From NCBI RefSeq assembly GCF_025813715.1, contig NZ_CP107532.1, positions 5,056,001 through 5,120,000 of the forward strand: a DNA stretch of 64,000 nucleotides. The letters are read 5' to 3'. Positions 11,243 to 58,175 of this stretch are shown piece after piece. This stretch comes from Methylobacterium sp. FF17. Its GTDB lineage: Bacteria > Pseudomonadota > Alphaproteobacteria > Rhizobiales > Beijerinckiaceae. The position numbers and the translations under genes were made by a program. A model generated the notes under the pieces. That model was given only the letters and a program-made list of their open reading frames with translations. It was not told the origin of the DNA and did no database searches. Numbering within the stretch: position 1 is the stretch's first letter; each line of letters begins with the position of its first letter.

Positions 11243-12190
11243 TCAGAGGTCGAGGGTCACGCACCCCCGAGCGCGCGAGACGCACGGGGTCATCCGATCC
11301 TGGCGCTTCGCGACCGAAAGCACCGCATCGCGGTGGATCACCGCGCCGTCGCGGTAGCCGCACTCGCAGGCCCCGCAGACTCCGAGCTCGCACGAGGAAG
11401 GCTGGGAGACGCCGTACTCCCGCAGGACGTCGAGGAGCGAACGGTCCGCCGGCACGGGGAGCACGGCGCCGGTGGATGCGATGCGTGCCTCGAACGCCTC
11501 GGGTACGAAGGTCTCGTCCGAGACGGCGCCGAAGTGCTCGACATGAACCTGCTCGGACGGCCAGCCCTTCGCGTCGAGGGCAGCCTGGACCGCCTCGGTG
11601 AGACGCCGCGGGCCGCAGGCGTAGACGTGGGTGTCCACAGTCGAATCGTGCAGGAGCGCGGCATCGAAGCGCCGGCCTTCGTCGGAGAACCAGGCCTGCA
11701 GGCGATCGCCGCAGACGGCACGGACCTCCGCGAGGAGGGGCGCTTCGGCCGCGGAGCGCGCGCAGACGTGCAGCGCGAAGTCGGCCTCGTCCGCCGCGAG
11801 CGTCCGGGCCATGGCGAGGAGCGGCGTCACGCCGATCCCGCCCGCCACGAGGACGTGCCGCCGTGCGGCGGGTGCGAGGGGAAAGTTGTTGCGGGGCGCG
11901 GAGATATCGACCGCCGAACCAACGGCCAGGTTTCCGTGCACCCAGGCCGAACCCCCGCGTCCCGCATCCTCGCGCTTGATCGCGATCTCGTAGCGACCGC
12001 GATCGGTAGGGTCGCCGCAGAGCGAGTACTGGCGCACGCGTCCATCCGGAAGCCGAAGGTCGACATGGGCGCCGGCCGTCCAGGACGGGAGTTCCGGCCG
12101 TCGCGGATGAACCAGGGTGAGATGCAGCACGTCGGGCGTCGTTGCCACCGCCGCCGCGACCTGCAGCTTCATGACCAGGCGTGCGCTCAC
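11243..12190 (-). CDS. PDR/VanB-type ferredoxin-NAD(P)H oxidoreductase
   Basis: Phthalate-dioxygenase-reductase-type electron transfer protein, 315 residues. Order: flavin-binding barrel with RQYSL (53-57), NAD-binding domain with GGIGVTP (117-123) and YACGP (190-194), then a C-terminal plant-type [2Fe-2S] ferredoxin with Cys267, Cys272, Cys275 and Cys303. The GTG start at 12190 follows the stop of the MOSC gene by 3 bp; ATG at 12172 is an alternative. No terminal oxygenase gene is next to it. Its likely partner is the adjacent MOSC protein, since fused MOSC-reductase-ferredoxin proteins exist; this pairing is inferred. Confidence 0.88.
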   Translation of the reverse strand: MSARLVMKLQVAAAVATTPDVLHLTLVHPRRPELPSWTAGAHVDLRLPDGRVRQYSLCGDPTDRGRYEIAIKREDAGRGGSAWVHGNLAVGSAVDISAPRNNFPLAPAARRHVLVAGGIGVTPLLAMARTLAADEADFALHVCARSAAEAPLLAEVRAVCGDRLQAWFSDEGRRFDAALLHDSTVDTHVYACGPRRLTEAVQAALDAKGWPSEQVHVEHFGAVSDETFVPEAFEARIASTGAVLPVPADRSLLDVLREYGVSQPSSCELGVCGACECGYRDGAVIHRDAVLSVAKRQDRMTPCVSRARGCVTLDL

Positions 12191-12193
12191 GAG

Positions 12194-12763
12194 CTAGTCC
12201 ACCATCTCGATCGTATCGCCGACGCGGATGATGCCGCCGCGCTCGATCCCGCAGTTCAGGCCCGAGCGGTTGTAGAGCGGCAGGTAGACCGGCTGGCCCA
12301 GCAGTTCCTCGAGATACTTGCAGGGGAAGTTCAGCCGTCCGCCGCGCAGGATCACCTCGCCCACCCGAAAGCGTCGACCCACGAGGTGGTTGAGCGGAAC
12401 GCCGCGGACCGTGAGGTTGCGGCGGTGGTCGATGGGCGCGATCTGGATGGGGCCGCCCTGGAGCGGCGGATCGTTCCGGTTGATCGCGTCCAGCGCCTCC
12501 TGCTCGATCAGGGTCACCTCACGGGTGTCGGGCTTGGGCGAATAGGTGCCCGACCCGAGATAGTAGCGGTCGCCCTCGATGCCGCGCCCGGCGACGCACC
12601 GGGCCTCGGTGCGTTCCTCCATCTCGTAGCTCGCCGCCGAAGCCGTATGGATGTTGAGCAGCGCGCCCCGCCATCCCGTCGCGCCGCCCGGAACGCCGAC
12701 CGCGATCGAACCGGCGGGATGGGCGAAGGCCTCGACCATGCGCGGTGGCGATGCGTCCGTCAT
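12194..12763 (-). CDS. MOSC domain protein, putative molybdenum-cofactor reductase
   Basis: 189-residue MOSC-family protein (YiiM/mARC-related), a family that binds molybdenum cofactor and reduces N-hydroxylated compounds. GIEGDRYYLG (61-70), RRNLTVRGVPLNHLVGRRF (114-132) and Cys148 in NFPCKYLEELLG, a candidate Mo ligand, support the assignment. It overlaps the ridA-like gene by 4 bp and is followed at once by the PDR-type reductase, so the three are one translationally coupled unit. The substrate is unknown. Confidence 0.85.
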   Translation of the reverse strand: MTDASPPRMVEAFAHPAGSIAVGVPGGATGWRGALLNIHTASAASYEMEERTEARCVAGRGIEGDRYYLGSGTYSPKPDTREVTLIEQEALDAINRNDPPLQGGPIQIAPIDHRRNLTVRGVPLNHLVGRRFRVGEVILRGGRLNFPCKYLEELLGQPVYLPLYNRSGLNCGIERGGIIRVGDTIEMVD

Positions 12764-44119: not shown

Positions 44120-44270
44120 GCAGGGGATGTCCAAGCTTGCGGCAGCATGGAGAGACTGTCGCGATCTGCAGTCCGTTTGGCGGAAACTGCCGCCTCGTCA
44201 AGCTGGCCATCAAGGTTCGATGGTCCTAGCCTTGCTTTCGAAAGTGCAAGACTTCTGAGGAGTGTGTCTG

Positions 44271-45281
44271 ATGTCGGAGACCAACGGCAAAGTCCCGGTG
44301 ACGGTTCTCACGGGCTTCCTCGGCTCGGGCAAGACCACCCTCCTGAACCAGCTGCTGGCCCAGGAGGGGGCGGAAGGGACCGCCGTCATCGTCAACGAGT
44401 TCGGGGCGGTCGGCATCGACGGCCAACTCGTCGTCGGCGTCGACGAGGACATCATCGAGATCAACAACGGCTGCATCTGCTGCACGGTGCGGGCGGATCT
44501 CGTCTCGACCATCGAGCGTCTGCTCGCGCGGCCCCAGCGGGTCCGCCGGATCCTGATCGAGACGACGGGCCTCGCCGATCCGGCGCCGGTCATCCAGAGC
44601 TTCATCCTGGACGAGCGGCTGCGGGCGAGCACGGAACTGGACGCGCTCGTCACCGTCGTCGATGCGCTCCACAATCCGATCTGGCTCGCCATGGGCGCGG
44701 AGGCCGAGGCGGCCGGCGGCGAGAACATCGCGGCCGAGCAGATCGCCTTCGCGGACCTCCTGGTGCTGAACAAGACCGATCTCGTCGATGGAGACACGCT
44801 CGCGCTGCGCGAAACGGACCTGCGCCGCCTCAATCCCCTCGCGCGCATCCTGCGCGTCCGGGACGGGACGGTGCCGGCCGCCGAGGTGCTGGGCATCCGG
44901 GCCTTCGACCTCAAGAACGCCCTCGCCATCGAGCCCGAGCTCCTGTCCGATCTCGAGCACGAGCACGACGACGCGATTACGAGCGTCGCGCTGACGATCG
45001 AGGACGACCTGGACCCGGCGCCGTTCTTCAAATGGCTCAACACCTTCGTCCAGGCCAAGGGCTCCGATATCTTCCGGATCAAGGGCATCGTGCCCGTGCG
45101 GGGCGAGGCGCGCCGCTACGTCTTCCACGGCGTCCACATGACGCTGGACGGCCGGCCCGGGCGTCCGTGGCGGCCAGGTGAGATGCGACGCGGCGAGATC
45201 GTCTTCATCGGGCGCAACCTCGACCGGACTGCGATCGAGGCCGAGGTGCACGCCTGCATCGCGCGCCGCGCCGCCGCCTGA
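44271..45281 (+). CDS. CobW/P47K-family GTPase, nitrile hydratase metal chaperone
   Basis: 336-residue G3E GTPase with Walker A GFLGSGKT (15-22), GCICC metal motif (67-71), and NKTD guanine-specificity motif; the C-terminal CobW_C domain has GRPWRPGEMRRGEIVFIGRNLD. Proteins of this type insert the metal into nitrile hydratase. ATG 44271 has GAGGAG 8 nt upstream; GTG 44262 is the alternative. It is the first gene of the nitrile hydratase operon. Confidence 0.9.
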   Translation: MSETNGKVPVTVLTGFLGSGKTTLLNQLLAQEGAEGTAVIVNEFGAVGIDGQLVVGVDEDIIEINNGCICCTVRADLVSTIERLLARPQRVRRILIETTGLADPAPVIQSFILDERLRASTELDALVTVVDALHNPIWLAMGAEAEAAGGENIAAEQIAFADLLVLNKTDLVDGDTLALRETDLRRLNPLARILRVRDGTVPAAEVLGIRAFDLKNALAIEPELLSDLEHEHDDAITSVALTIEDDLDPAPFFKWLNTFVQAKGSDIFRIKGIVPVRGEARRYVFHGVHMTLDGRPGRPWRPGEMRRGEIVFIGRNLDRTAIEAEVHACIARRAAA

Positions 45282-45841: not shown

Positions 45842-46576
45842 ATGAAACTTCAGCACACCCTCGGCGGCCTCGAAGGCCTCGACCCCGTCGTTCCGGAACT
45901 CCGCGTCTTCGTCGAGCCCTGGGAGGAACGCATCTTCGGCATCCACACCGCGATGATGGCGCTCAGCCCGCAGCTGAACCTGCCGCAGACATCGAGCACC
46001 TTCAAGACGATCTGGACCTGGGCCGACCTTCGCAAGGGCGCGGAGGCGATGAATCCGTTCGATTACTTCAAATACCGCTACTACGAGAAGTGGCTCGGCG
46101 GAATCTCGGGCTACTTCGTCGCCCACGGCTACATCACGCAGGCGGAGCTCGACGCCCGGACGGACGAGTACCTCGCCGATCCGGCAAAGCCTCTGTCGTC
46201 CGGCGGTACGCCGGAGGTCGACGACCGCATCCACACGTACCTCATCGACGGGGACTCGCCCTGGCATCAATGGGCGGACAAGCCTCGCTTCGCCGTCGGC
46301 GACACCGTCCTCATCGGCGACCCGCCCACGGTGGAGCATACCCGCCTGCCCGGCTACCTGCGCAACAAGGTCGGTGTCGTCGAGACCGTCTACGACGACG
46401 CGTTCAGCTACCTGTGCTCGACCGGCCCGGACGGCATCGGCCCGGCGATGCCGGTCTACTGCATCAAGTTCGATCCGCAGCACCTGTGGCCGGGCAATGC
46501 CGAACCCGGCTTCTTCCTCTACGCGGACCTGTTCGACGCCTACCTGCGCCCGGTGGCGCAGCAGGCCGCCGCCTAG
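45842..46576 (+). CDS. nthB: Nitrile hydratase beta subunit
   Basis: Structural subunit of the nitrile hydratase that hydrates nitriles to amides. It has 244 residues. N-terminal alpha-helical region with LGGLEGLDPV, EPWEERIFGIHTAMMAL and YYEKWLGGISGYFVAHGYI; C-terminal SH3-like barrel with PRFAVGDTVLIGDPP, HTRLPGYLRNKVGVVETVYD and FFLYADLFDAYLRP. Beta before alpha is the gene order of cobalt-type enzymes. Confidence 0.94.
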   Translation: MKLQHTLGGLEGLDPVVPELRVFVEPWEERIFGIHTAMMALSPQLNLPQTSSTFKTIWTWADLRKGAEAMNPFDYFKYRYYEKWLGGISGYFVAHGYITQAELDARTDEYLADPAKPLSSGGTPEVDDRIHTYLIDGDSPWHQWADKPRFAVGDTVLIGDPPTVEHTRLPGYLRNKVGVVETVYDDAFSYLCSTGPDGIGPAMPVYCIKFDPQHLWPGNAEPGFFLYADLFDAYLRPVAQQAAA

Positions 46577-46582
46577 ATCCGA

Positions 46583-46609
46583 TCCTCGACGAGACGCACT
46601 CGTCGAGGA
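46583..46609 (+). other. Hairpin between nthB and nthA
   Basis: TCCTCGACGAG, a 5-nt loop ACGCA and the perfect complement (11-bp stem) begin 6 bp after the nthB stop. It lies in an unusually long 132-bp gap between the two subunit genes, so it may set relative expression by attenuation or mRNA processing. Confidence 0.6.
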
Positions 46610-46708
46610 CCCCTCACCCGCCCGCCCCGCGAAGACCTTCGCCCGGACCCTTTCGCCCGCGATCACCCGTCGACGGCAGCGAACCGGCATCGACAAGGTA
46701 GGAACCCC

Positions 46709-47332
46709 ATGACTGATCGTTTCGCCTATTCCGAGGACCGCGAGAAGCGCAACGCGGCGCGCGTGCGGGCGCTGGAAGCCCTGCTGATCGAGAAGGGCGT
46801 CATCACGGACCAGACCGTCGACAAGGTGATGGAGACCTTTGCGACCGAGATGGGGCCCTTCAACGGCGCGAAGCTCGTCGCCCGGGCCTGGGTCGACGAC
46901 GCCTTCAAGGCCCTGCTCGTGACCGATACCATGGCGGCCGTCGCGCAACTCGGGCTCCCGACGGGAGCGGCAGGGGCCGAGGGCGAGCACATGCGGGCCG
47001 TGGCGAACACGCCGGACGTCCACAACCTCATCATCTGCACGCTTTGCTCGTGCTATCCGTGGCCGGTCCTGGGTCTCCCGCCCTACTGGTACAAGGACCC
47101 ATCCTTCCGTGCCCGCGCGGCCCGTGAGCCGCGTGCCGTGCTCAAGGAGTTCGGGCTGGAGGTCGCGCCGTCGAAGGAGATCCGGACCTGGGACAGCTCG
47201 GCCCAGATCCGCTGGTTCGTCGTGCCCGAGCGGCCGGACGGCACCCAGGGCATGAATGAGGACGAACTCGCGGCGCTGGTCACCCCGGAGACGATGATGG
47301 GTGTCGCCATCGCGTTGCCGCAGGCCGCCTGA
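46709..47332 (+). CDS. nthA: Nitrile hydratase alpha subunit, cobalt type
   Basis: Catalytic subunit, 207 residues. The metal-claw motif CTLCSC has Cys110, Cys113, Ser114 and Cys115; Thr at 111 marks the cobalt class (Ser marks iron). It is followed by YPWPVLGLPPYWYK and RAREPRAVLKEFG-type residues typical of the family. The two outer claw Cys are oxidised post-translationally in the mature enzyme. Starts MTDRFAYSEDRE after GGTAGGA. Confidence 0.95.
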   Translation: MTDRFAYSEDREKRNAARVRALEALLIEKGVITDQTVDKVMETFATEMGPFNGAKLVARAWVDDAFKALLVTDTMAAVAQLGLPTGAAGAEGEHMRAVANTPDVHNLIICTLCSCYPWPVLGLPPYWYKDPSFRARAAREPRAVLKEFGLEVAPSKEIRTWDSSAQIRWFVVPERPDGTQGMNEDELAALVTPETMMGVAIALPQAA

Positions 47333-47342
47333 GGCGTCCCCC

Positions 47343-47660
47343 ATGCAGACGAGCTTCGAGCACTTCGCCGTCGCCAGCATGTTGGGGCAGTCCGATACGC
47401 CCCCCCGGGCCAATGGCAGCCTCTGCTTCCATCAGCCCTGGGAGCGGCAGGCGTTCGGCCTGGCCGTGGCGCTCGCCCGGGACGGGCACTTCGAATGGGA
47501 GGCGTTCCGGCAGGCGCTGATCGCCGAGATCACCGCGTGGGAGGCGTCCCACGCCCGCGACGACCCGGACTGGGACTACTACGAGTGCTGGCTGAACGCC
47601 CTCGAACGCGTGATGCCGCCCGAGATCCTGCCCGGCATCGCAACGGGGTCTCGGGCCTGA
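47343..47660 (+). CDS. Nitrile hydratase activator (P14K/NhlE-like)
   Basis: 105-residue accessory protein homologous to the N-terminal half of the beta subunit: CFHQPWERQAFGLAVALARDGHFEWEAFRQALIAEI, DDPDWDYYECWLNALERVM. In cobalt enzymes this protein pairs with the alpha subunit to load cobalt and is swapped for beta. ATG lies 10 bp after nthA. Confidence 0.9.
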   Translation: MQTSFEHFAVASMLGQSDTPPRANGSLCFHQPWERQAFGLAVALARDGHFEWEAFRQALIAEITAWEASHARDDPDWDYYECWLNALERVMPPEILPGIATGSRA

Positions 47661-47827
47661 CCGCGCGTGGATCGAGAGATCCGGGCGGACGATGCCTCAT
47701 CCGACGCATCTCCGCCTCCATCCCGGGGCAATCCTCGGCCGCGGGCAGACAGCCTGCCCGTATGGAAGCGGTGACCCTGCCGCGATGACGGGCTGCCGTG
47801 GCCAGGACGGCCAACCGGAGTGAACTC

Positions 47828-48982
47828 TTGACCGCCACCCGTCCGACCGACCCTCACCTGCCCGGCTCGGTGCGGCGGAAGATCGGCGTGCTGTACCTGT
47901 TCCTGGTTTCCGCGAACGTCGCGGTCTGGGCCTGGGCGTACGATCTCTTCGCCGGCAACCCGGCCCTGCTCTCGACGGCATTCCTGGCCTATGTCCTCGG
48001 GGTGCGGCACGGCGTCGATCCGGATCACATCGCGGCGATCGACAACGTCACGCGCAAGCTGATGCAGGAGGGCCAGCGACCGATCGCCGTCGGTCTCTGG
48101 TTCGCGCTCGGTCACTCCACCGTCGTCGTCGTCGCGGCCACCTTCGTCGCGCTCGCCACGACCAGCATGCTCGATGTCCCGGGGCGATACCGGGAGCTGG
48201 GAAGCCTAGTCGGGACGGGCGTGTCGGCGACGTTCCTGATCCTCATCAGCCTCGTCAATTGCGTGGTTCTGGCCGGCGTCTGCCGCGCCTTCTGGCGCCT
48301 GCGCCGGGGGCGGGACGTCCCCCGGGATCCCGAGCGCATGCCGCCCGCGCATCAGGGTCTCCTGACCCGGATCCTGCGTCCCCTGTTCGGGCTGATCACG
48401 CGGTCCTGGCAGATGTACCCGTTGGGCCTGCTCTTCGCGCTCGGCTTCGAGACGGCCACGGAAGTGAGCCTGTTCGGCCTCTCGGCGGCACAGGCCGGGA
48501 GCGGGGCGGATCTCTGGCTCGTCCTCGTGTTCGCAGCCCTCTTCACCGCCGGCATGACGCTGGTCGATGCCACCGATGGCGTGCTGATGCTCGGGGCCTA
48601 CAGCTGGGCGTATGTGCAGCCGCAGAGGAAGCTTCTCTACAACCTCGTCGTCACCCTCCTGTCCGTCGTGGTCGCCCTGGTGATCGGCACGTCGGAGGCC
48701 ATCGATATCGTCGCCGACCGGTTCGGATCACAGAGCGGGCACGGGACCTGGCTCGGCAGCATCTCCGACCATTACGATACGCTCGGGTTCGGAATCATCG
48801 GCGCTTTCGTCCTGGCCTGGGCGGTGTCCTGGCTCATGCACCGCCGTGACCGGTCCGGTTCCGACAATCCCGGGTTCTGGCTCGACCGTTCGCGAGCCGC
48901 GCCTGACGCCTGTACGCGCGCCGCACTTGCCGGGCCTCCGATCGGCTTGGCTTCTCCGCCCCGACCCGCTCCGCCGGGCTGA
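47828..48982 (+). CDS. nhlF: NiCoT-family cobalt/nickel permease (NhlF-like)
   Basis: Inner membrane permease of about 384 residues with the NiCoT signatures RHGVDPDHIAAIDNVTR (HX4DH), LGHSTVVV, LGFETATEVSLF and GMTLVDATDGVLM. It supplies Co2+ for the cobalt nitrile hydratase, as NhlF does in Rhodococcus. TTG 47828 has GGAG 7 nt upstream; GTG 47798 is the longer option. The last 50 residues are a polar Pro/Ala-rich tail. Confidence 0.91.
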   Translation: MTATRPTDPHLPGSVRRKIGVLYLFLVSANVAVWAWAYDLFAGNPALLSTAFLAYVLGVRHGVDPDHIAAIDNVTRKLMQEGQRPIAVGLWFALGHSTVVVVAATFVALATTSMLDVPGRYRELGSLVGTGVSATFLILISLVNCVVLAGVCRAFWRLRRGRDVPRDPERMPPAHQGLLTRILRPLFGLITRSWQMYPLGLLFALGFETATEVSLFGLSAAQAGSGADLWLVLVFAALFTAGMTLVDATDGVLMLGAYSWAYVQPQRKLLYNLVVTLLSVVVALVIGTSEAIDIVADRFGSQSGHGTWLGSISDHYDTLGFGIIGAFVLAWAVSWLMHRRDRSGSDNPGFWLDRSRAAPDACTRAALAGPPIGLASPPRPAPPG

Positions 48983-49026: not shown

Positions 49027-50115
49027 CTACCGCAGATCCCCGTCCATCCGAACACCGTTCGAACGGTCGTGCCCAAGGGCGGGGGCGGGCAAGGATTCGG
49101 CCGTCGCGCGCCCCGTCTCGTCCGTCGCTGCAGCATCGCCGTCGTGGAAGGTGGCGGGCTGCTGGCGCCGGCGTCGAACCGTGAGGTCGAAGATGTCGAA
49201 GCGATTGTAATACCCGACGACATCGTGGAACTGCTTCGGCTCGATGCAGGCGTTGAGGTCGATGTCGGCGTAGACGATGCCTTCCTCGTTCTGAAGGACT
49301 TCGCTGATCTGGCGTCCGGTGGGATCGATGACGAAGGATGCGGCGCGCGGCGTTTCGTCGAGGACGCGCGCGGCCCTTGCGTCGCGTCCGACGAGGGCGT
49401 CCCGCATGGCACTGTCCATGAAGCCGGCGGTCACGATGCCGAAGGCCTTGGCTTCGAACGAATGGGCGCTCGCCCGGATCCGGTTGGCCGCAACGTTGTC
49501 GAAATTGCCGTCTTCCGCCGGCGGACGCGTCGGCTAGATCGGCGGCCAGGACGAGACGTGGACCTGCTCGCCCTGCGCCATCAGCGCGAACCGCGCGAGG
49601 GGGTTGGTGTTCTCGCCGCAGATCAGCCCGCCGAGGCGCCCGATCCGGGTGTCGGCCACGCGCAGACCCTCGCCGTCCCCGGCAGCCCAGACGAGCTTCT
49701 CATAGAAGGTCGGCACCAGCTTGCGGTGGTGAACGAGGATGGCGCCGTCATCGCCGATGAGAAGGTTGGTGTTCCACAGGCAGCCGACGCTGGCCGGCGA
49801 GCGCTCGCTGATGCCGATGGAGACGAAGACGCCGAGTTGCCGGGCCTGGTGCCGGATCTCGGTCACTTCCGGCCCGTCCACGAAGACGGATTCGGTCACC
49901 ATGCGCTGGAACAGGTCGTGGTTCTCGATGGGCGCCCACAGGGCCGCCCAGACGGGAAAGGCCGGGATGTAGGTTTCCGGGAAGGCGATGAACTCCGCGC
50001 CGGCGCGAGCCGCTTCCCGAAGAATCGAAACGGCCTTTCGGGTGGTCGCGGCCTTGTCGAGAAAGACCGGGGCGGCGTGCACGGCCGCGACCTTGAAGCG
50101 TGGAAGCTGACCCAT
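49027..50115 (-). pseudogene. Nitrilase interrupted by one in-frame amber codon
   Basis: Carbon-nitrogen hydrolase of the nitrilase/cyanide-hydratase class. Read through, it encodes 362 codons, the usual nitrilase length. The first 193 residues hold the full triad: Glu47 (FPETYIPAFPVW), Lys132 (HHRKLVPTFYEK) and Cys166 (LICGENTNPLAR). Codon 194 is TAG (49534-49536), after SSWPPI and before PTRPPAEDGNFDN; relatives have Trp here, so one TGG-to-TAG change explains it. The same frame continues cleanly to 49027 with RIRASAHSFEAKAFGIVTAGFMD. No other damage is visible. A functional protein would need readthrough or suppression. Confidence 0.88.
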
Positions 50116-50364: not shown

Positions 50365-51261
50365 TCAGAAGCGTGTCAGATACGCGTTCTCGCGATCGAA
50401 CAGCCCGGTGAGGAAGCGGGTCACCGCACGGACGCGACCGAGATGTTCGATGTCCTCGTGCACGGACAGGTACACGTCCCGCATGACGACGGCGGTGTCG
50501 GGAAGGACGGGCACCAGACTAGGCTCGCGCTTCGAACAGAACAGCGGCAACAGCCCGATCCCGAACCCGGCGGCCACCGCGTTCTGCTGTGCGGCGAGGC
50601 TCGTCGACCGGAAGACCACGCTCTCCGGCTGCAGGATGTCCAGGAGCCAGTGCACCGTGTCTATGGCGAGGAGATCCTCCACGTAATCCACGAAGTCGTG
50701 CCGCTGGAGTTCACATCGCTCCGTGGGTGTACCCCGATCGGCCAGGTAGGCTGGCGCGGCGAACAGGGCGAGGCGGATCGCCCCGATCCGCTGGACCTTC
50801 AGGCGCGGCCCCTGGGGTGGGACGAAGCTGACGGAGATGTCGGCCTCGCGCTTGGTGAGGTTGATCAGGTGGCGTTCGGTGACGAGCTCGATCACGATGC
50901 CCGGATGGGTCCGGGCGAGTTCGCGGAAGCGCCCGCTGAGATAGAAGGCCGCGATTCCCTCCATGCTCGCCACCCGGACCCGCCCGGCGGGTTCCGTCCC
51001 GACCGACGAGCCGAGCACCCCGGGGACCGAGAGCGCCTGCGCCTCGATGGCCTCCGCGACCGCCAGCAGCCTGTGCCCGTGCTCGGTCAGGATGAAGCCA
51101 TCGGGGCGGCGGTCGAAGAGTTTCGCGTCGATGGAGCGCTCGAGCTCGGCGACGCGACGGCTGACCGTCGTGTGGTCGACCCTCAGCCGCTTGGCCGCCG
51201 GCATGAGGCGCCCATGCCGGGCGAGTTCCAGAAAGAACGTCAGGTCGTTCCAGTCGAACAC
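50365..51261 (-). CDS. LysR-family regulator
   Basis: 298 residues from GTG 51261 (VFDWNDLTFFLELARHGRLMPAAKRL); the frame is open further upstream but that part has no LysR similarity. HTH RLRVDHTTVSRRVAELERSIDAKLFDRRPDG. Divergent from the amide-type ABC transporter genes with 286 bp between, and next to the nitrilase, so it may regulate either. No ribosome site clearly fixes the start. Confidence 0.87.
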   Translation of the reverse strand: MFDWNDLTFFLELARHGRLMPAAKRLRVDHTTVSRRVAELERSIDAKLFDRRPDGFILTEHGHRLLAVAEAIEAQALSVPGVLGSSVGTEPAGRVRVASMEGIAAFYLSGRFRELARTHPGIVIELVTERHLINLTKREADISVSFVPPQGPRLKVQRIGAIRLALFAAPAYLADRGTPTERCELQRHDFVDYVEDLLAIDTVHWLLDILQPESVVFRSTSLAAQQNAVAAGFGIGLLPLFCSKREPSLVPVLPDTAVVMRDVYLSVHEDIEHLGRVRAVTRFLTGLFDRENAYLTRF

Positions 51262-51547
51262 GGACGACTCGGGTGTGAGGCCACGGATGCCGAACGGTAC
51301 CTCGGCGTGCGGCAAGCGCCTAGCAGTGACAGGGACCGAGCGTTCGATGCGCCGAGCACGGATCGACAATGGGCCCCAAGGGAGCGTCGGACCAATCGGC
51401 ATCGCTTAAACGGGCGGCGTATTGATGCAAGAAGTGGCAGGGCGCGCTGCAGTTTTCAGCGGAACTTCCGCAGGGGGCTGTGCGCGTTTTTCCAGTCCCG
51501 CGTCGCTCGGGCTGCGGTTACCCTCGCGTCGAATTGGGGGGATCCAC

Positions 51548-52711
51548 ATGCTTCGAGTACTGGCGAACACGCTGCTGGCGGCCGTGACCGTTCTGGGCCC
51601 GGCGCGGATGGCGGAAGCGAAGGATACGGTGAAGATCGCCTTCATCGGGCCGTTGACGGGCGGCAACGCCGCTGCCGGCATGGGTGGGCGCAACTCGTCG
51701 CTGCTCGCCGTGCAGATCTGGAACGCGGATCCGAAGAGCCGATACCTCTACGAGCTCGCCGTCTTCGACGACGAATGCAAGCCGAACATCGGCGTCCAGG
51801 TCGCGACCAAGGCCGCCGCGGACCGTTCGGTCACGGCCGGCATCACCCATTACTGCTCGGCCGTCGGGATCGCGACCGTCGACACCTACGCCCGCTTCAA
51901 GCTCCCGGTGGTGGTCTGGGGCGCCATCCTGCCGGAGATCACCTACGGCAACGCGCATAAACAGATCCACCGTGTGAACGGCACGATGATCAACGAAGGC
52001 AAGCTCGCGGCGTCGTTCCTCTCGGAGCACGGTTTCAAGACCGTCGCGGTGATCCACGACACGACGGATTACGGCAAAGGACAGAACAAGTACTTTTCCG
52101 AATATCTCAAGCCGGCCGGAGGCGAGATCCTGGCGACCTTCGCGGTCGCGCCCGACCAGCAGGATTTCACGGCGGAACTGACGCGGATCAAGGAGCTGAG
52201 GCCGGACCTCGTCTTCATCGGCGGCCTGACGCCCCTCGGCGTCCGCGTCCGCTCGCAGATGGAGCGTCTCGGGATCGAGGCCCGCATGGCGGGGGTCTCG
52301 GGGATCATGACGGCGGGCTTCCTCGAAGGTGCGGGCGCCGCCGCAGAGGGAACCGTCTCGTTCCATAACGGCGCGCCCCTCTCGAAATACGCCAACGGTC
52401 AGGCCTTCACCGAAGCCTACGGGAAGGCCGGGTTCCGGGAGGATCCCGATGCCTACGGCCCGTTCGCCTATTCCGCCGCGAACCTGATCATGGATGCCGT
52501 CGAGAAGGTCGGGCCCGATCGGGCGAAGGTCACGACCGAGCTGAACGGCACCAAAGGCTACCCGTCCCTCATCGGCGAGATCAACTTCGACGATCACCGT
52601 CAGAACCTCGTGAACGCGAACGTCTACGTCGCGCAGGGTGGGAAGTGGGTCTACTGGCCGGACAGCGACTATGCGGCCGGAAAGAAGGCCCTGGTGCCCG
52701 CCCGGCGCTGA
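51548..52711 (+). CDS. ABC transporter substrate-binding protein, LIV/amide type
   Basis: Periplasmic type 1 binding protein of 387 residues with a signal peptide (MLRVLANTLLAAVTVLGPARMAEA). Mature start KDTVKIAFIGPLTGGNAAAGMGGRNS and FGY-type later motifs match the LivJ/AmiC/urea family (Peripla_BP_6). Located in the nitrile island, so it may bind a nitrile, amide or aldoxime rather than branched-chain amino acids (inferred). First gene of the five-gene transporter operon. Confidence 0.92.
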   Translation: MLRVLANTLLAAVTVLGPARMAEAKDTVKIAFIGPLTGGNAAAGMGGRNSSLLAVQIWNADPKSRYLYELAVFDDECKPNIGVQVATKAAADRSVTAGITHYCSAVGIATVDTYARFKLPVVVWGAILPEITYGNAHKQIHRVNGTMINEGKLAASFLSEHGFKTVAVIHDTTDYGKGQNKYFSEYLKPAGGEILATFAVAPDQQDFTAELTRIKELRPDLVFIGGLTPLGVRVRSQMERLGIEARMAGVSGIMTAGFLEGAGAAAEGTVSFHNGAPLSKYANGQAFTEAYGKAGFREDPDAYGPFAYSAANLIMDAVEKVGPDRAKVTTELNGTKGYPSLIGEINFDDHRQNLVNANVYVAQGGKWVYWPDSDYAAGKKALVPARR

Positions 52712-52769
52712 TGAACAGGGCCGGTTAGGCCCGCCCCTTCGATCATCTCGTAACACGCGGGAGCACAGG

Positions 52770-53687
52770 ATGGATTTCGGCTTTCTGGCCCAGCATCTGT
52801 TCAATGGACTGATGCTGGGCGTCATCTACGCGATGATCGCCGTGGGGTTCTCGCTGTTCTTCGGCGTCCTCGACGTGATCAAGTTCTCGCACGGCGATGT
52901 CGTCACCCTCGGCGCTTTCGCGGCCCTCGGTGCCGTCGCCTTCGTGGGCTCCCTCGTTCCCGTGCCGGGCCTCGCCCTGATCCTCGGGCTCCTGGCCGCC
53001 ATCGCGGCCGGCATGGCGGCGGGCGTCCTGATCGGCGGCACCCTCGTGCTGCCCCTGCGCAACGCGCCGCCCGTCAACGTCCTGCTGATCACCCTGATGG
53101 CCGGCACCATCCTGCGCGAGGCGATCCGCCTCGGCGTGCCGAACGGCGGCAACCCCAAGCCGTTCCCGGCCCTGCTTCCGGAACAGCGCATCACGGCGGG
53201 CTCCTTCAGTGTCGGGCTCGACAGCGTGATCATCCTCGTGGCGGGCCTTGCGGTGATCTTCGCCACCCATCGCCTCGTCACGCGCACCCGTCTCGGGCTG
53301 GCGATCCGTGCGGTCGCCCAGGATCCCGAGGTGGCCTGTCTGTCCGGCATCGATTTCCGCCGCACGGTGCTCGGGACTTTCGCCCTCGGCTCGGCGCTCG
53401 CCGCCATCGCGGGCTGCATGCTCGGGCTCTACTACCGCGAGATCAACTTCAGCATGGGTCTCGTTCTCGGCGTGATCGGCTTCGCCGCCGCTGTGGTGGG
53501 CGGGCTCGGCAGCCTGCTCGGACCCATCCTCGGCGGCTTCCTGTTCGCCGGCGTCCAGACTCTCGTCACGATCTCCGTGCCCTCCGCCAGCGCCTACAAG
53601 GACGTGGCGGCCTTCGCGGTGGTGATCGTGCTTATCGGCCTGTTTCCCACGGGCCTGATCTCCGAACATTCCAGCGAGCGGGTCTGA
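52770..53687 (+). CDS. ABC transporter permease, LivH type
   Basis: 305 residues, about eight TM segments, LivH/UrtB family: QHLFNGLMLGVIYAMIAVGFSLFFGVLDVIKFSHGDVVTLGAF and the EAA-like loop IRAVAQDPEVACLSGIDFRR. ATG overlaps the AGG of a GGGAGCACAGG ribosome site. Follows the binding protein gene by 58 bp. Confidence 0.92.
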   Translation: MDFGFLAQHLFNGLMLGVIYAMIAVGFSLFFGVLDVIKFSHGDVVTLGAFAALGAVAFVGSLVPVPGLALILGLLAAIAAGMAAGVLIGGTLVLPLRNAPPVNVLLITLMAGTILREAIRLGVPNGGNPKPFPALLPEQRITAGSFSVGLDSVIILVAGLAVIFATHRLVTRTRLGLAIRAVAQDPEVACLSGIDFRRTVLGTFALGSALAAIAGCMLGLYYREINFSMGLVLGVIGFAAAVVGGLGSLLGPILGGFLFAGVQTLVTISVPSASAYKDVAAFAVVIVLIGLFPTGLISEHSSERV

Positions 53688-53689
53688 CC

Positions 53690-54883
53690 ATGAACTCTGC
53701 CGAGATCCAGCTCTCCGGCGCTGCCCCTGCGGCCGCGGGCGCCCCGTTCGAACGCATCGCCGCGGTCGCGGTGCCGATCCTGAGTTTCGCCGCCCTGGCC
53801 TGTCTCCTGGGGGCCGAGCGGGAGTGGGAGATCCTCGGGATTCTCCTCGCCTTCCTGGCCGCCCTCGTCGTCCTCGACCGGACGCCGACCGGCCGAGCGG
53901 CGGTCGCCGCCTGCCGCAGCCAGCGCGGGATCGCGAACGCCACCGCGGCCCTGGCGACCCTGGTTCTCCTGTGGATCTTCCGCGAGGAGCACTACGCCCT
54001 CCTCATGGTCGCGACGGTGGCGCTCTCCGCCACGGCCTGCATCGGCCTCAACATCCAGATGGCGCTCGGCGGCATCGCCAACTTCGCCTCGGCGGCGTTC
54101 TTCACCCTCGGTGCCTACACCGCCGCCGTGCTGGCGGGACACACCGCGCTCCCGCACCTCGCGGTGCTCGCGGCGGGCGGACTCGTGACCGCCGCCCTCG
54201 GCCTGCTCCTGCTGCTGCCCGTCCTGCGGACGCGTGGCCACTACGTGGCCCTCGTGACCATCGCCTTCGGCGTGCTGCTGCGCAACCTGCTGGAGGTGAA
54301 CGATACCCTTGGCGGACCCCAGGGCCTGAAGATCCCGAGTTTCGCGCCGTTCGGCCTCGATTTCGGGGCCGTCAGTGCCGTGGCCGGCTACGAGGTCTCG
54401 TTCTACCTGCCCTACGCCCTGGCGGCGGCGATCCTCTTCGCCCTGGCCTTCGCGGCGATGCGGTGCCTGGAGCTTTCCTGGATCGGCATCGCCATCGACG
54501 CCGTGCGCACCGACCCCATCGCGGCGTCCACCTTCGGCCTGTCGCCGGCGCGCTGGAAGGCCACCGCCTTCCTGTTCGGCAATGCCATGATCGGCGTCGC
54601 CGGCGCGCTCTACGGAATGATGAACGGGTTCGTGAACCCCAACGGCGCAGGCTTCGGCGAATCCCTGACCCTGCTCTCCATCGTGGTCCTCGGCGGCCTC
54701 GGCAACGTCTGGGGGACGGTGGCGGCCGCGGCCATCATCCTCGTCCTCCCCGAGAAACTTCAGGCGATCCAGGAGTACCGCCTGCTGATCTTCGCCGCCG
54801 TGGTGATCGCGATCCTGCGCTTCCGCCCGAGCGGTCTTCTGCCGCGCCCCTTGCGCATCCTCGGCGGCCGGACGGGAGGCTGA
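53690..54883 (+). CDS. ABC transporter permease, LivM type
   Basis: 397-residue membrane protein of the LivM/UrtC family with about ten TM segments: LNIQMALGGIANFASAAFFTLGAYTAAVL, the cytoplasmic loop LRTRGHYVALVTIAFGVLLRNL and GGLGNVWGTVAAAAIILVLPEKL. Begins 2 bp after the LivH-type stop, so the two are translationally coupled. Confidence 0.92.
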   Translation: MNSAEIQLSGAAPAAAGAPFERIAAVAVPILSFAALACLLGAEREWEILGILLAFLAALVVLDRTPTGRAAVAACRSQRGIANATAALATLVLLWIFREEHYALLMVATVALSATACIGLNIQMALGGIANFASAAFFTLGAYTAAVLAGHTALPHLAVLAAGGLVTAALGLLLLLPVLRTRGHYVALVTIAFGVLLRNLLEVNDTLGGPQGLKIPSFAPFGLDFGAVSAVAGYEVSFYLPYALAAAILFALAFAAMRCLELSWIGIAIDAVRTDPIAASTFGLSPARWKATAFLFGNAMIGVAGALYGMMNGFVNPNGAGFGESLTLLSIVVLGGLGNVWGTVAAAAIILVLPEKLQAIQEYRLLIFAAVVIAILRFRPSGLLPRPLRILGGRTGG

Positions 54884-54887
54884 GACC

Positions 54888-55682
54888 ATGACTGCGTCCC
54901 TCATGACCGCGCCCCTGCTCACCTGCTCCGGCCTGACCATGCGTTTCGGAGGCCTCACCGCCCTCGACGGGCTCGACATTTCCGTCGACCCCGGCACGAC
55001 CATCGGCCTCGTCGGCCCGAACGGATCGGGCAAGACCACGTTCTTCAACGTGCTCACCGGCCTCTACCGCCCCTCGGCGGGCACGGCGGCCCTCGCCGAG
55101 GCGGACATCTTCGGAAAATCGCCCCAGGCGATCGGACGCGCCGGCGTGGCGCGCACCTTCCAGAGGTGCCGGCTCATGCTCGACCAGAGCGTATTCGACA
55201 ACATCGCCCTCGGTGCCCTGCGCCACCAGGATCTCGGCCTCGCGGCCCAGTTGTTCCGTCGGCGCCGGCTGCGCGCGGAGATCGACGCCCTGGTCGAACG
55301 GGTGCACGGCATCGCCATGCGGTTCAACCCGGCTATCGCCGCGTCCCTGTTCGAGCCGGCGGGGAGCTTCACGATGATCGACCGCCGCCGCATCGAGATC
55401 TGCCGCGCGCTGATCGCCAATCCGCGCCTCCTCCTCCTCGACGAACCGTCGGCGGGCATGACCCCGGAGGAGACGCGCCGCCTGATGGACGACCTCCTCG
55501 ATTTCCGGCGGGAGGCTCCGGACCTCGCGGTGATCCTCGTGGAGCATGAGATGGACGTGATCCGCCGGGTCTCGAACCGCTGCGTCGTGCTGAATTTCGG
55601 CCGCAAGATCTTCGAGGGGTCCTTCGAGGACCTGATTGAGGACCGGGACGTCCAGACCGCCTACCTGGGGAGCGGACATTGA
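54888..55682 (+). CDS. ABC transporter ATP-binding protein, LivG type
   Basis: 264 residues. Walker A GPNGSGKTT, Walker B LLLLDEPSAG and the H-loop VEHEM are canonical. The signature region reads SFTMIDRRRIEICRAL, where an LSGGQ-like motif is degenerate (FTMIDRR), which is unusual for a LivG protein. It overlaps the LivF gene by 4 bp. Confidence 0.9.
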   Translation: MTASLMTAPLLTCSGLTMRFGGLTALDGLDISVDPGTTIGLVGPNGSGKTTFFNVLTGLYRPSAGTAALAEADIFGKSPQAIGRAGVARTFQRCRLMLDQSVFDNIALGALRHQDLGLAAQLFRRRRLRAEIDALVERVHGIAMRFNPAIAASLFEPAGSFTMIDRRRIEICRALIANPRLLLLDEPSAGMTPEETRRLMDDLLDFRREAPDLAVILVEHEMDVIRRVSNRCVVLNFGRKIFEGSFEDLIEDRDVQTAYLGSGH

Positions 55683-56416
55683 GCACGGTGCGCAAGGCCG
55701 CCTCGCGGCACCTCTCGGTCTCCGGGGTCAGTTCGGGCTACGACCGCGCCGATGTGCTCAAGCAGGTCTCCCTGGACGTCCGCCCCGGCGAGGTCACCTG
55801 CATCCTCGGGGCCAACGGCGCCGGCAAGAGCACGCTCATCCGGACGATCCTGGGGTTGAACCGGGTCCGTTCGGGCACGATCCGCTTCGGGACCACGAAC
55901 CTCGACGGGCTTCCCCCGCACAGGATCGTGGCGCTCGGCATCGGCGTCGTCCCGGAGGGCAACCGGGTCCTGCCTCGGATGACGGTCGCGGAGAACCTCG
56001 AAGTCGGCGGACTCCTCGATCCCGACCCCGGCAAGGTCGCCGAGCGGATGGAAGCGATGTTCGCGGTGTTTCCGCGCCTCAGGGAGCGGCGCACGCAGCT
56101 CGCCGGCACCCTGTCGGGGGGCGAGCGCTCGATGCTCTCCATCGCCCGCGGCCTCATGACCGATCCCGAACTCGTGGTGTTCGACGAACCGTCGCTCGGT
56201 CTCTCGCCGCTGTTCGTCTCCGAGGTCTTCGGCATCGTCCGGCGCCTCAAGGAGACGGGCCTGACGATCCTGCTCGTCGAGCAGAACGTGCGCCAGACGC
56301 TCGACGTCGCCGATCACGGCTACGTCCTCTCCCAGGGGAGCGTCGTGGCCTCGGGAGAGACGCGGGCGCTCCGGGAGGACGCCGAACTCCACAAGGCCTA
56401 CTTCGGCGTGCATTGA
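55679..56416 (+). CDS. ABC transporter ATP-binding protein, LivF type
   Basis: 245 residues from a TTG start that overlaps the LivG stop (ATTGA), with GGGGAG 6 nt upstream. Walker A GANGAGKST, signature LSGGERSML, Walker B VVFDEPSLGLSP, H-region VEQNVRQTLD. The next gene's ATG overlaps its stop. Confidence 0.93.
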   Translation: MSTVRKAASRHLSVSGVSSGYDRADVLKQVSLDVRPGEVTCILGANGAGKSTLIRTILGLNRVRSGTIRFGTTNLDGLPPHRIVALGIGVVPEGNRVLPRMTVAENLEVGGLLDPDPGKVAERMEAMFAVFPRLRERRTQLAGTLSGGERSMLSIARGLMTDPELVVFDEPSLGLSPLFVSEVFGIVRRLKETGLTILLVEQNVRQTLDVADHGYVLSQGSVVASGETRALREDAELHKAYFGVH

Positions 56417-57050: not shown

Positions 57051-58175
57051 ATGACCCTTCGTTCGGATGAAGCGCCACGGCACGGTGGTGCACGGATCCT
57101 CGATGCGGTGCCCCCCGAAGCCTTCGGGGCGCTCGAACGCATCGCGCCGCTGCGCAAGCCACCGGGCTTCACGCCCGCGGTCCAGCGCTGGTCGTTCCTC
57201 CTTCCGGAGGGTGAGACGGGACTGCACGTCGCCTTCTTCGGGGCCCAGGCCGATGCCCAGGCCGAGCTCGACGGCCACCCGATGCGGCACTGGATCGACA
57301 CCCATCTCGTCGGCCATGCCGACGGGCCGACCTGCCTCGACCATGCACGCGCGCCCCTGTCCGGCGGACGCGTGGAGCATGTCGTCTGCGCGTACTGGGT
57401 CTCGGCGGCGCGGTTCGCGCGCTGGGCCGCGGACCCGGCGGCGGAAGGCTGGTGGCACGACCCGAAGCGGCTCACCGGCCGCCACGGCGCTTGGCGCGAG
57501 GTTCTCTGGGTGCCGCGTGCGCGCCAGGAGAGCATCTACTGGAAAGATTATCCCGCCGGCCTGATGGCGAGCCCGGAGGTTGCGATCTTCCCGACACCCT
57601 TCTGTGGATATTACGGCGCCATGCGCGACCGACTCCCGGCGGCCGCGACGGATCGCCTGGACGCCCCTCCGGGCGCCGAACTCGCGGTCCGGTCCGAGCG
57701 GCGCGGCTATGGCGAGCACTGGTCGGTGCGTCCGCCGCACAACCTCGCGCTCATCCGCTCCGCGAACAGCTGGGCGCGCATGGATGGGGAGCAGCGCGCC
57801 GATTACGACGCCAAGCTGCGCGATCCCCTCGCAGCCGGCATGGACTACCTCGGCGAGAATCCCCTGCCCTCCGGCTGCGCCTGCATGCGCTGGCAGGGCA
57901 CGACGGACACGGAGGGAGCGCCCCAGCCGGAAGCGCACGCACACGCCTATTTCCTCTCCCTCAGCCACATGGAGCGCTGGGCGGAGGGCCATGCCACGCA
58001 TGCCGCGATCTTCAGGGCTGCGATCCAGCGCTACCGTCACTACGGCTCCGCCAACCAGCTCCGGACCTGGCACGAAGTCTATGTGCTTCCGGAGGACAGG
58101 CAGCGGTTCGAGTACCTGAACTGCGATCCGCAGACAGGCCTGCTGCGCTGGTTCGAGGCCGATCGACTGGCGTGA
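57051..58175 (+). CDS. Aldoxime dehydratase, heme-dependent (phenylacetaldoxime dehydratase family)
   Basis: 374-residue OxdA/OxdRE-type enzyme that dehydrates aldoximes to nitriles with heme b. The proximal heme ligand is probably His306 in LSLSHMERWAEGHATH, and Ser225 in EHWSVRPPHNLALIRS corresponds to the active-site Ser. Other family marks are CGYYGAMRDR, GCACMRW and EYLNCDPQTGLLRW. Its product is the nitrile hydratase substrate. Start at MTLRSDEAPRHG; the ribosome site is weak (AGAGAA). No repeat or IS is adjacent. Confidence 0.94.
   Translation: MTLRSDEAPRHGGARILDAVPPEAFGALERIAPLRKPPGFTPAVQRWSFLLPEGETGLHVAFFGAQADAQAELDGHPMRHWIDTHLVGHADGPTCLDHARAPLSGGRVEHVVCAYWVSAARFARWAADPAAEGWWHDPKRLTGRHGAWREVLWVPRARQESIYWKDYPAGLMASPEVAIFPTPFCGYYGAMRDRLPAAATDRLDAPPGAELAVRSERRGYGEHWSVRPPHNLALIRSANSWARMDGEQRADYDAKLRDPLAAGMDYLGENPLPSGCACMRWQGTTDTEGAPQPEAHAHAYFLSLSHMERWAEGHATHAAIFRAAIQRYRHYGSANQLRTWHEVYVLPEDRQRFEYLNCDPQTGLLRWFEADRLA

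Follow-up and report, generated by a model that had tools for sequence, protein, structure and literature searches.

A single in-frame amber codon interrupts the nitrilase gene of an aldoxime-nitrile locus in Methylobacterium sp. FF17, probably as a recent null allele

In the stretch of DNA analysed here (the window: 64,000 nucleotides of Methylobacterium sp. FF17, positions 5,056,001 to 5,120,000 of contig NZ_CP107532.1, assembly GCF_025813715.1), a nitrilase gene carries a stop codon within its reading frame. This contig is 5,735,273 bases long and is one of seven in a genome of 5,991,529 bases. The locus raises the question of whether the gene has been inactivated, whether the stop codon is an error in the sequence, or whether the codon is read during translation.

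Translation of the minus strand from 50115 to 49027 gave a single nitrilase frame of 362 residues with one internal stop. This stop is a TAG at codon 194 (49536-49534, minus strand), flanked by SSWPPI and PTRPPAEDG. The frame is made up as follows:

49537..50115, minus strand: nitrilase 5' part, 193 codons with Glu47, Lys132, Glu139 and Cys166 (Pfam CN_hydrolase, 1.2e-30, profile positions 1-171 of 256)
49534..49536, minus strand: in-frame TAG, nitrilase codon 194 (where 79 of the 80 homologous loci encode Trp by TGG)
49027..49533, minus strand: nitrilase 3' part, 168 codons followed by a TAG stop of its own (Pfam CN_hydrolase, 3.4e-5, profile positions 192-253 of 256; dN/dS 0.082 against the Methylorubrum rhodinum locus L002, residues 195-320)

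When the strain's own genome was searched for CN_hydrolase, a single match spanned both pieces, with '1 TAG' counted inside it; the whole domain does not lie on an uninterrupted frame, owing to the TAG at codon 194. The 168-residue piece by itself scored 23.7 bits, barely above the Pfam cut-off of 23.2. Since long open runs after TAG are common in this GC-rich genome (at least 168 open codons followed the stop in 9 of the 29 other sampled TAG-ended genes, or 10 of 30 with the nitrilase included), openness alone is weak evidence of an interruption, and it is the homology of the second piece that counts. The nitrilase frame is thus confirmed to be broken by one in-frame stop; an earlier note on this DNA had described a single amber codon in an otherwise intact frame, and both the translation and the domain match across the two pieces bear this out.

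Glu47, Lys132 and Cys166, which that note had placed before the stop, do lie upstream of it, together with Glu139. The four columns were invariant in all 239 proteins compared (see below), and we take these residues to be the Glu-Lys-Glu-Cys active site of nitrilases. Hydrolysis of nitriles to acids is, for this gene, a predicted trait of its family. The frame's own terminal stop is also TAG. Internal restart at GTG 49434 (135 aa) was considered as a route to activity and rejected, the resulting piece having none of the four active-site residues.

A genome collection was scanned with the 193-residue piece, which gave 168 loci with a relative, and the best 80 of these were kept. Codon 194 was TGG in 79 of these best 80 of 168 loci and TAT (Tyr) in one (L053); none had a stop. 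The closest named relative among them was that of M. rhodinum (94%), followed by those of Bosea, Azorhizobium and Bradyrhizobium. A set of 239 proteins was also assembled from two database searches (best 120 of 527 matches and best 120 of 2,266 matches, with one protein common to both). Among these listed proteins, residue 194 was Trp in 234, a gap in 3, Ile in 1 and Cys in 1. Trp at this position in the relatives means that the nitrilase family does not end at codon 194. The alignment also agrees with the residue that the earlier note had given for the relatives, and a single base change, as it had proposed, is enough to turn the TGG of the relatives into the TAG found here.

The protein database contains an intact near-twin of the window frame, P0121 (362 aa, 13 member sequences), which differs from it only at residues 194, 308 and 346 and has Trp at residue 194. 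The window frame and P0121 also have in common Asp202, where the usual residue is Gly, and no other of the 239 listed proteins has it; Asp202 is therefore most likely older than the stop. The nearest named nitrilase, that of M. rhodinum (L002; P0122), shows 94% identity in its first 193 residues and has the same catalytic residues. Its gene is an open frame with Trp at codon 194, whereas the window gene has TAG. In a survey of the genus (111 genomes, one per species, matches counted at E <= 1e-60), nitrilase was found in 31 genomes, with 34 matches in total. The strain's own copy is the sole shortened one, its open frame being 276 aa long compared to 339-750 aa for the other 33 matches. Among the best 120 of 527 matches to the 193-residue piece, in a search that took in lengths of about 106-337 aa, none was more than 79% identical to it, so that no record of the truncated protein was seen there. 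The nitrilase DNA had no match in the plasmid collection.

The genes around the nitrilase are as follows:

50365..51402, minus strand: LysR-type regulator, upstream of the nitrilase (Pfam HTH_1 and LysR_substrate; same place in L002, 81%)
51422..56416, plus strand: divergent ABC transporter, branched-chain-amino-acid type, with one binding protein, two permeases and two ATPases (Pfam matches for the binding protein, one permease and one ATPase)
57051..58175, plus strand: aldoxime dehydratase (Pfam Dehydratase_hem, 6.3e-68; NCBIfam aliphatic aldoxime dehydratase, 173.5 bits, below the cut-off of 600)
47798..48982, plus strand: NicO-type Ni/Co transporter, convergent with the nitrilase (Pfam NicO, 1e-85)
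45842..47660, plus strand: genes for the beta and alpha subunits of nitrile hydratase and for its accessory protein, all with open frames (NCBIfam TIGR03888, TIGR01323 and TIGR03889, above cut-off)
44262..45281, plus strand: CobW-type GTPase (Pfam cobW, 1.6e-56)

M. rhodinum L002 has the same LysR and ABC-transporter neighbours; the order of regulator, transporter and nitrilase is the same there, and so is that of the five transporter genes (84-93%). Aldoxime dehydratase makes nitriles from aldoximes. The family scored above cut-off in 13 of the 111 genus genomes, with the whole length matched in 6. In G044, the genome with the closest nitrilase, the aldoxime dehydratase gene lies about 7 kb from the nitrilase. 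An aldoxime dehydratase was seen on the nitrilase contig in G044 and G102. The nitrilase of the window sits in an aldoxime-nitrile locus.

Aldoxime-nitrile pathway clusters in plant-associated bacteria, as described in PMC8955678, have an aldoxime dehydratase gene near a nitrilase or a nitrile hydratase gene, and it is in this proximity that the window resembles them. Compared with those clusters, the window has both nitrile-using enzyme genes near the dehydratase gene, one of them interrupted. The word Methylobacterium is absent from the main text of PMC8955678. A literature search found no paper joining Methylobacterium, nitrilase, nitrile hydratase and aldoxime dehydratase; in a search for bacterial nitrilase pseudogenes with premature stops, the only match concerned plant glucosinolates.

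Substitution rates were compared on the two sides of the stop. Between the window and L002, dS was 0.515, dN 0.028 and dN/dS 0.055 before the stop; after it (residues 195-320), dS was 0.824, dN 0.068 and dN/dS 0.082. Pairs of intact genes gave, before and after codon 194 respectively, dN/dS values of 0.052 and 0.096 (L005-L007), 0.069 and 0.097 (L013-L020), and 0.051 and 0.105 (L003-L004). By these values, the second half evolves faster in the nitrilase family as such, and both halves of the window gene show purifying selection like that of the intact pairs. When L003, L004 and L032 were used as outgroups, second-half dN/dS was slightly higher for the window (0.147, 0.114 and 0.119) than for L002 (0.115, 0.084 and 0.096), though second-half dN was lower for the window than for L002 each time, with dS above 1, near saturation. 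The same outgroups served to assign amino-acid changes to branches. On the window branch, one clear change fell before the stop and one after it, compared with three on either side for L002; likely changes before and after the stop numbered 1 and 3 for the window and 1 and 1 for L002, and 5 and 7 were unassignable.

All 139 core columns with at least 90% conservation were unchanged in the window (92 before and 47 after the stop, column 194 being left out). At the 80% level, the sole change after the stop was Gly202 to Asp, which is absent from L002. Selection on both halves, together with the unchanged conserved columns, indicates that the stop is either very young or an assembly error. On this evidence, selection would have acted on the nitrilase until very recently, and would still act on it if the TAG is an error. 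That the mutation is very recent, as the earlier note had suggested, fits with the near-twin P0121 and with the conserved columns.

The structure predicted for P0121 (mean pLDDT 79, pTM 0.79, 59 sequences; poor at residues 137-147, which include Glu139, and at most residues beyond 299) places three of eleven strands after the stop (225-230, 260-263 and 279-286), as well as helices 207-222, 235-244 and 248-254. The solved nitrilases NitA (6zby) and 3wuy match P0121 in sequence over residues 6-317 and 7-317, respectively. Both align on either side of residue 194, whereas the product of the window gene would end at 193. The 193-residue piece is expected, from the model, to be inactive.

The conservation of the rest of the gene would be just as expected if the gene still worked, its TAG being either an error or a codon that is translated, and both of these readings have to be weighed. 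A base-calling or assembly error, with an intact nitrilase in the strain itself, would account for a gene that otherwise looks intact and selected; the near-identical intact protein P0121 exists, and one transition suffices to explain the TAG. We nevertheless consider such an error unlikely. A scan by codon usage for same-frame stops, covering 464,000 bases of the strain's own genome (the window and 20 stretches of 20 kb; 10,000 bases were N), gave nine candidates with a coding signal on both sides. Six of them read as boundaries between neighbouring genes, by eye and without a homology test for each; L188:9376-9378 was not decided by reading as either a boundary or an interruption. Only the nitrilase and an acetyltransferase looked interrupted, again by reading. 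So few interrupted genes imply that false nonsense codons are not common in the assembly.

If the amber codon were read through or recoded, some full-length nitrilase would be made, and this would likewise agree with the conserved downstream half. The base after the TAG is C, and a C after the stop codon makes a weaker termination context. Against this, no stop was present at codon 194 in any of the 80 homologous loci, which argues against conserved recoding; release factor 1 is present, above cut-off; the frame's own end is also TAG; and recency of the stop accounts for the downstream conservation without any read-through. The stops of 191 long sampled genes were TGA in 151, TAG in 30 (one being the nitrilase piece itself) and TAA in 10, so that TAG ended 29 of 190 sampled genes with the nitrilase piece excluded. 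For amber-suppressor tRNA genes, for which the earlier note had advised a check, no CTA anticodon was found among the 45 ARAGORN-named tRNAs of 46 Rfam tRNA matches, a list that is incomplete (for example, it is without Ile-GAT and Ala-TGC). A search pattern matching a CTA anticodon arm, restricted to one T-loop form, occurred at three places, none of them a CTA tRNA (one was tRNA-Arg(TCT) and two gave no tRNA by ARAGORN); the reversed pattern occurred at 41. Translation past the stop, which the earlier note had allowed for, is disfavoured, and we regard it as very unlikely. In a variant of this reading, which we hold to be very improbable, low-level translation of the TAG in this strain would throttle nitrilase output without abolishing it, and most of the nitrile would go to the hydratase.

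Some further observations were made during these scans. A 28-base 3' part of tRNA-Arg(TCT) is repeated exactly about 126 kb away (L159 and L160; G000:C1:113806-113833 and C1:240144-240171). The second copy gave no tRNA by ARAGORN, and the pattern is as at the ends of integrated elements. Besides the normal tRNA-Trp, a second tRNA-Trp(CCA)-like match of low score (30.6 bits) was seen at L154 (G000:C1:3359404-3359473). At L186:2176-2178 (minus strand), a TAA lies within the acetyltransferase-like frame, perhaps marking a second interrupted gene; the relative found in G079 shows 87% identity and has no stop, and the codon there, read by eye, is CGT, which is not one step from TAA. A same-frame TAG at 12194-12196 of the window (minus strand) might have pointed to amber codons being used more widely, a reading that we rejected: the codon separates a MOSC-like protein from an oxidoreductase-like frame that has a GTG start of its own (names by reading). 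A boundary such as this one, at 12190-12196 (minus strand), can pass for an interruption when frames are scanned.

Probably the right explanation is that a recent nonsense mutation, specific to this strain, inactivated the ordinary nitrilase of the aldoxime-nitrile locus. As expected of a recent pseudogene, close relatives have intact orthologues (P0121 and L002, with all 33 other genus matches open at 339 aa or more), and further decay, judged by dN/dS and the conserved columns, is slight. Release factor 1 would end translation at codon 194. Although it would retain the four active-site residues, the 193-residue piece would probably fail to fold or assemble, since it would be missing three of the eleven strands in the model and the intervening helices. 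Nitriles made by the aldoxime dehydratase would then be handled by the nitrile hydratase and by an amidase encoded elsewhere in the genome.

As to the cause of the loss, the earlier note had suggested that the hydratase route replaced the nitrilase. A hydratase that made the nitrilase dispensable, leading to its loss, would be a cause of the null allele and not an alternative to it. The distance from the 3' end of the nitrilase to the nitrile hydratase genes is 1.4-3.2 kb, and the strain's own genome has a second gene for the alpha subunit and nine amidase-family matches, so that a hydratase-amidase route in this genome is possible. However, none of the nine amidase-family matches lies in the window, and across the genus nitrile hydratase is equally common with and without a nitrilase, in 25 of 31 nitrilase-bearing genomes and 64 of 80 others (G101 was counted as without hydratase, being absent from the 89 genomes listed with a match). 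G044 keeps both an open nitrilase frame and a nitrile hydratase, about 30 kb apart. Replacement by the hydratase is thus not borne out by the genus, and we consider it quite unlikely as the cause of the loss.

Ordinary gene inactivation, and not a new way of reading the code, is the most likely meaning of the codon. The gene should be annotated as interrupted, and not be counted as a working nitrilase. By its appearance a clean and very young null allele, it would provide a natural experiment on which of the two enzymes, nitrilase or nitrile hydratase, bears the flux in bacteria of this kind.
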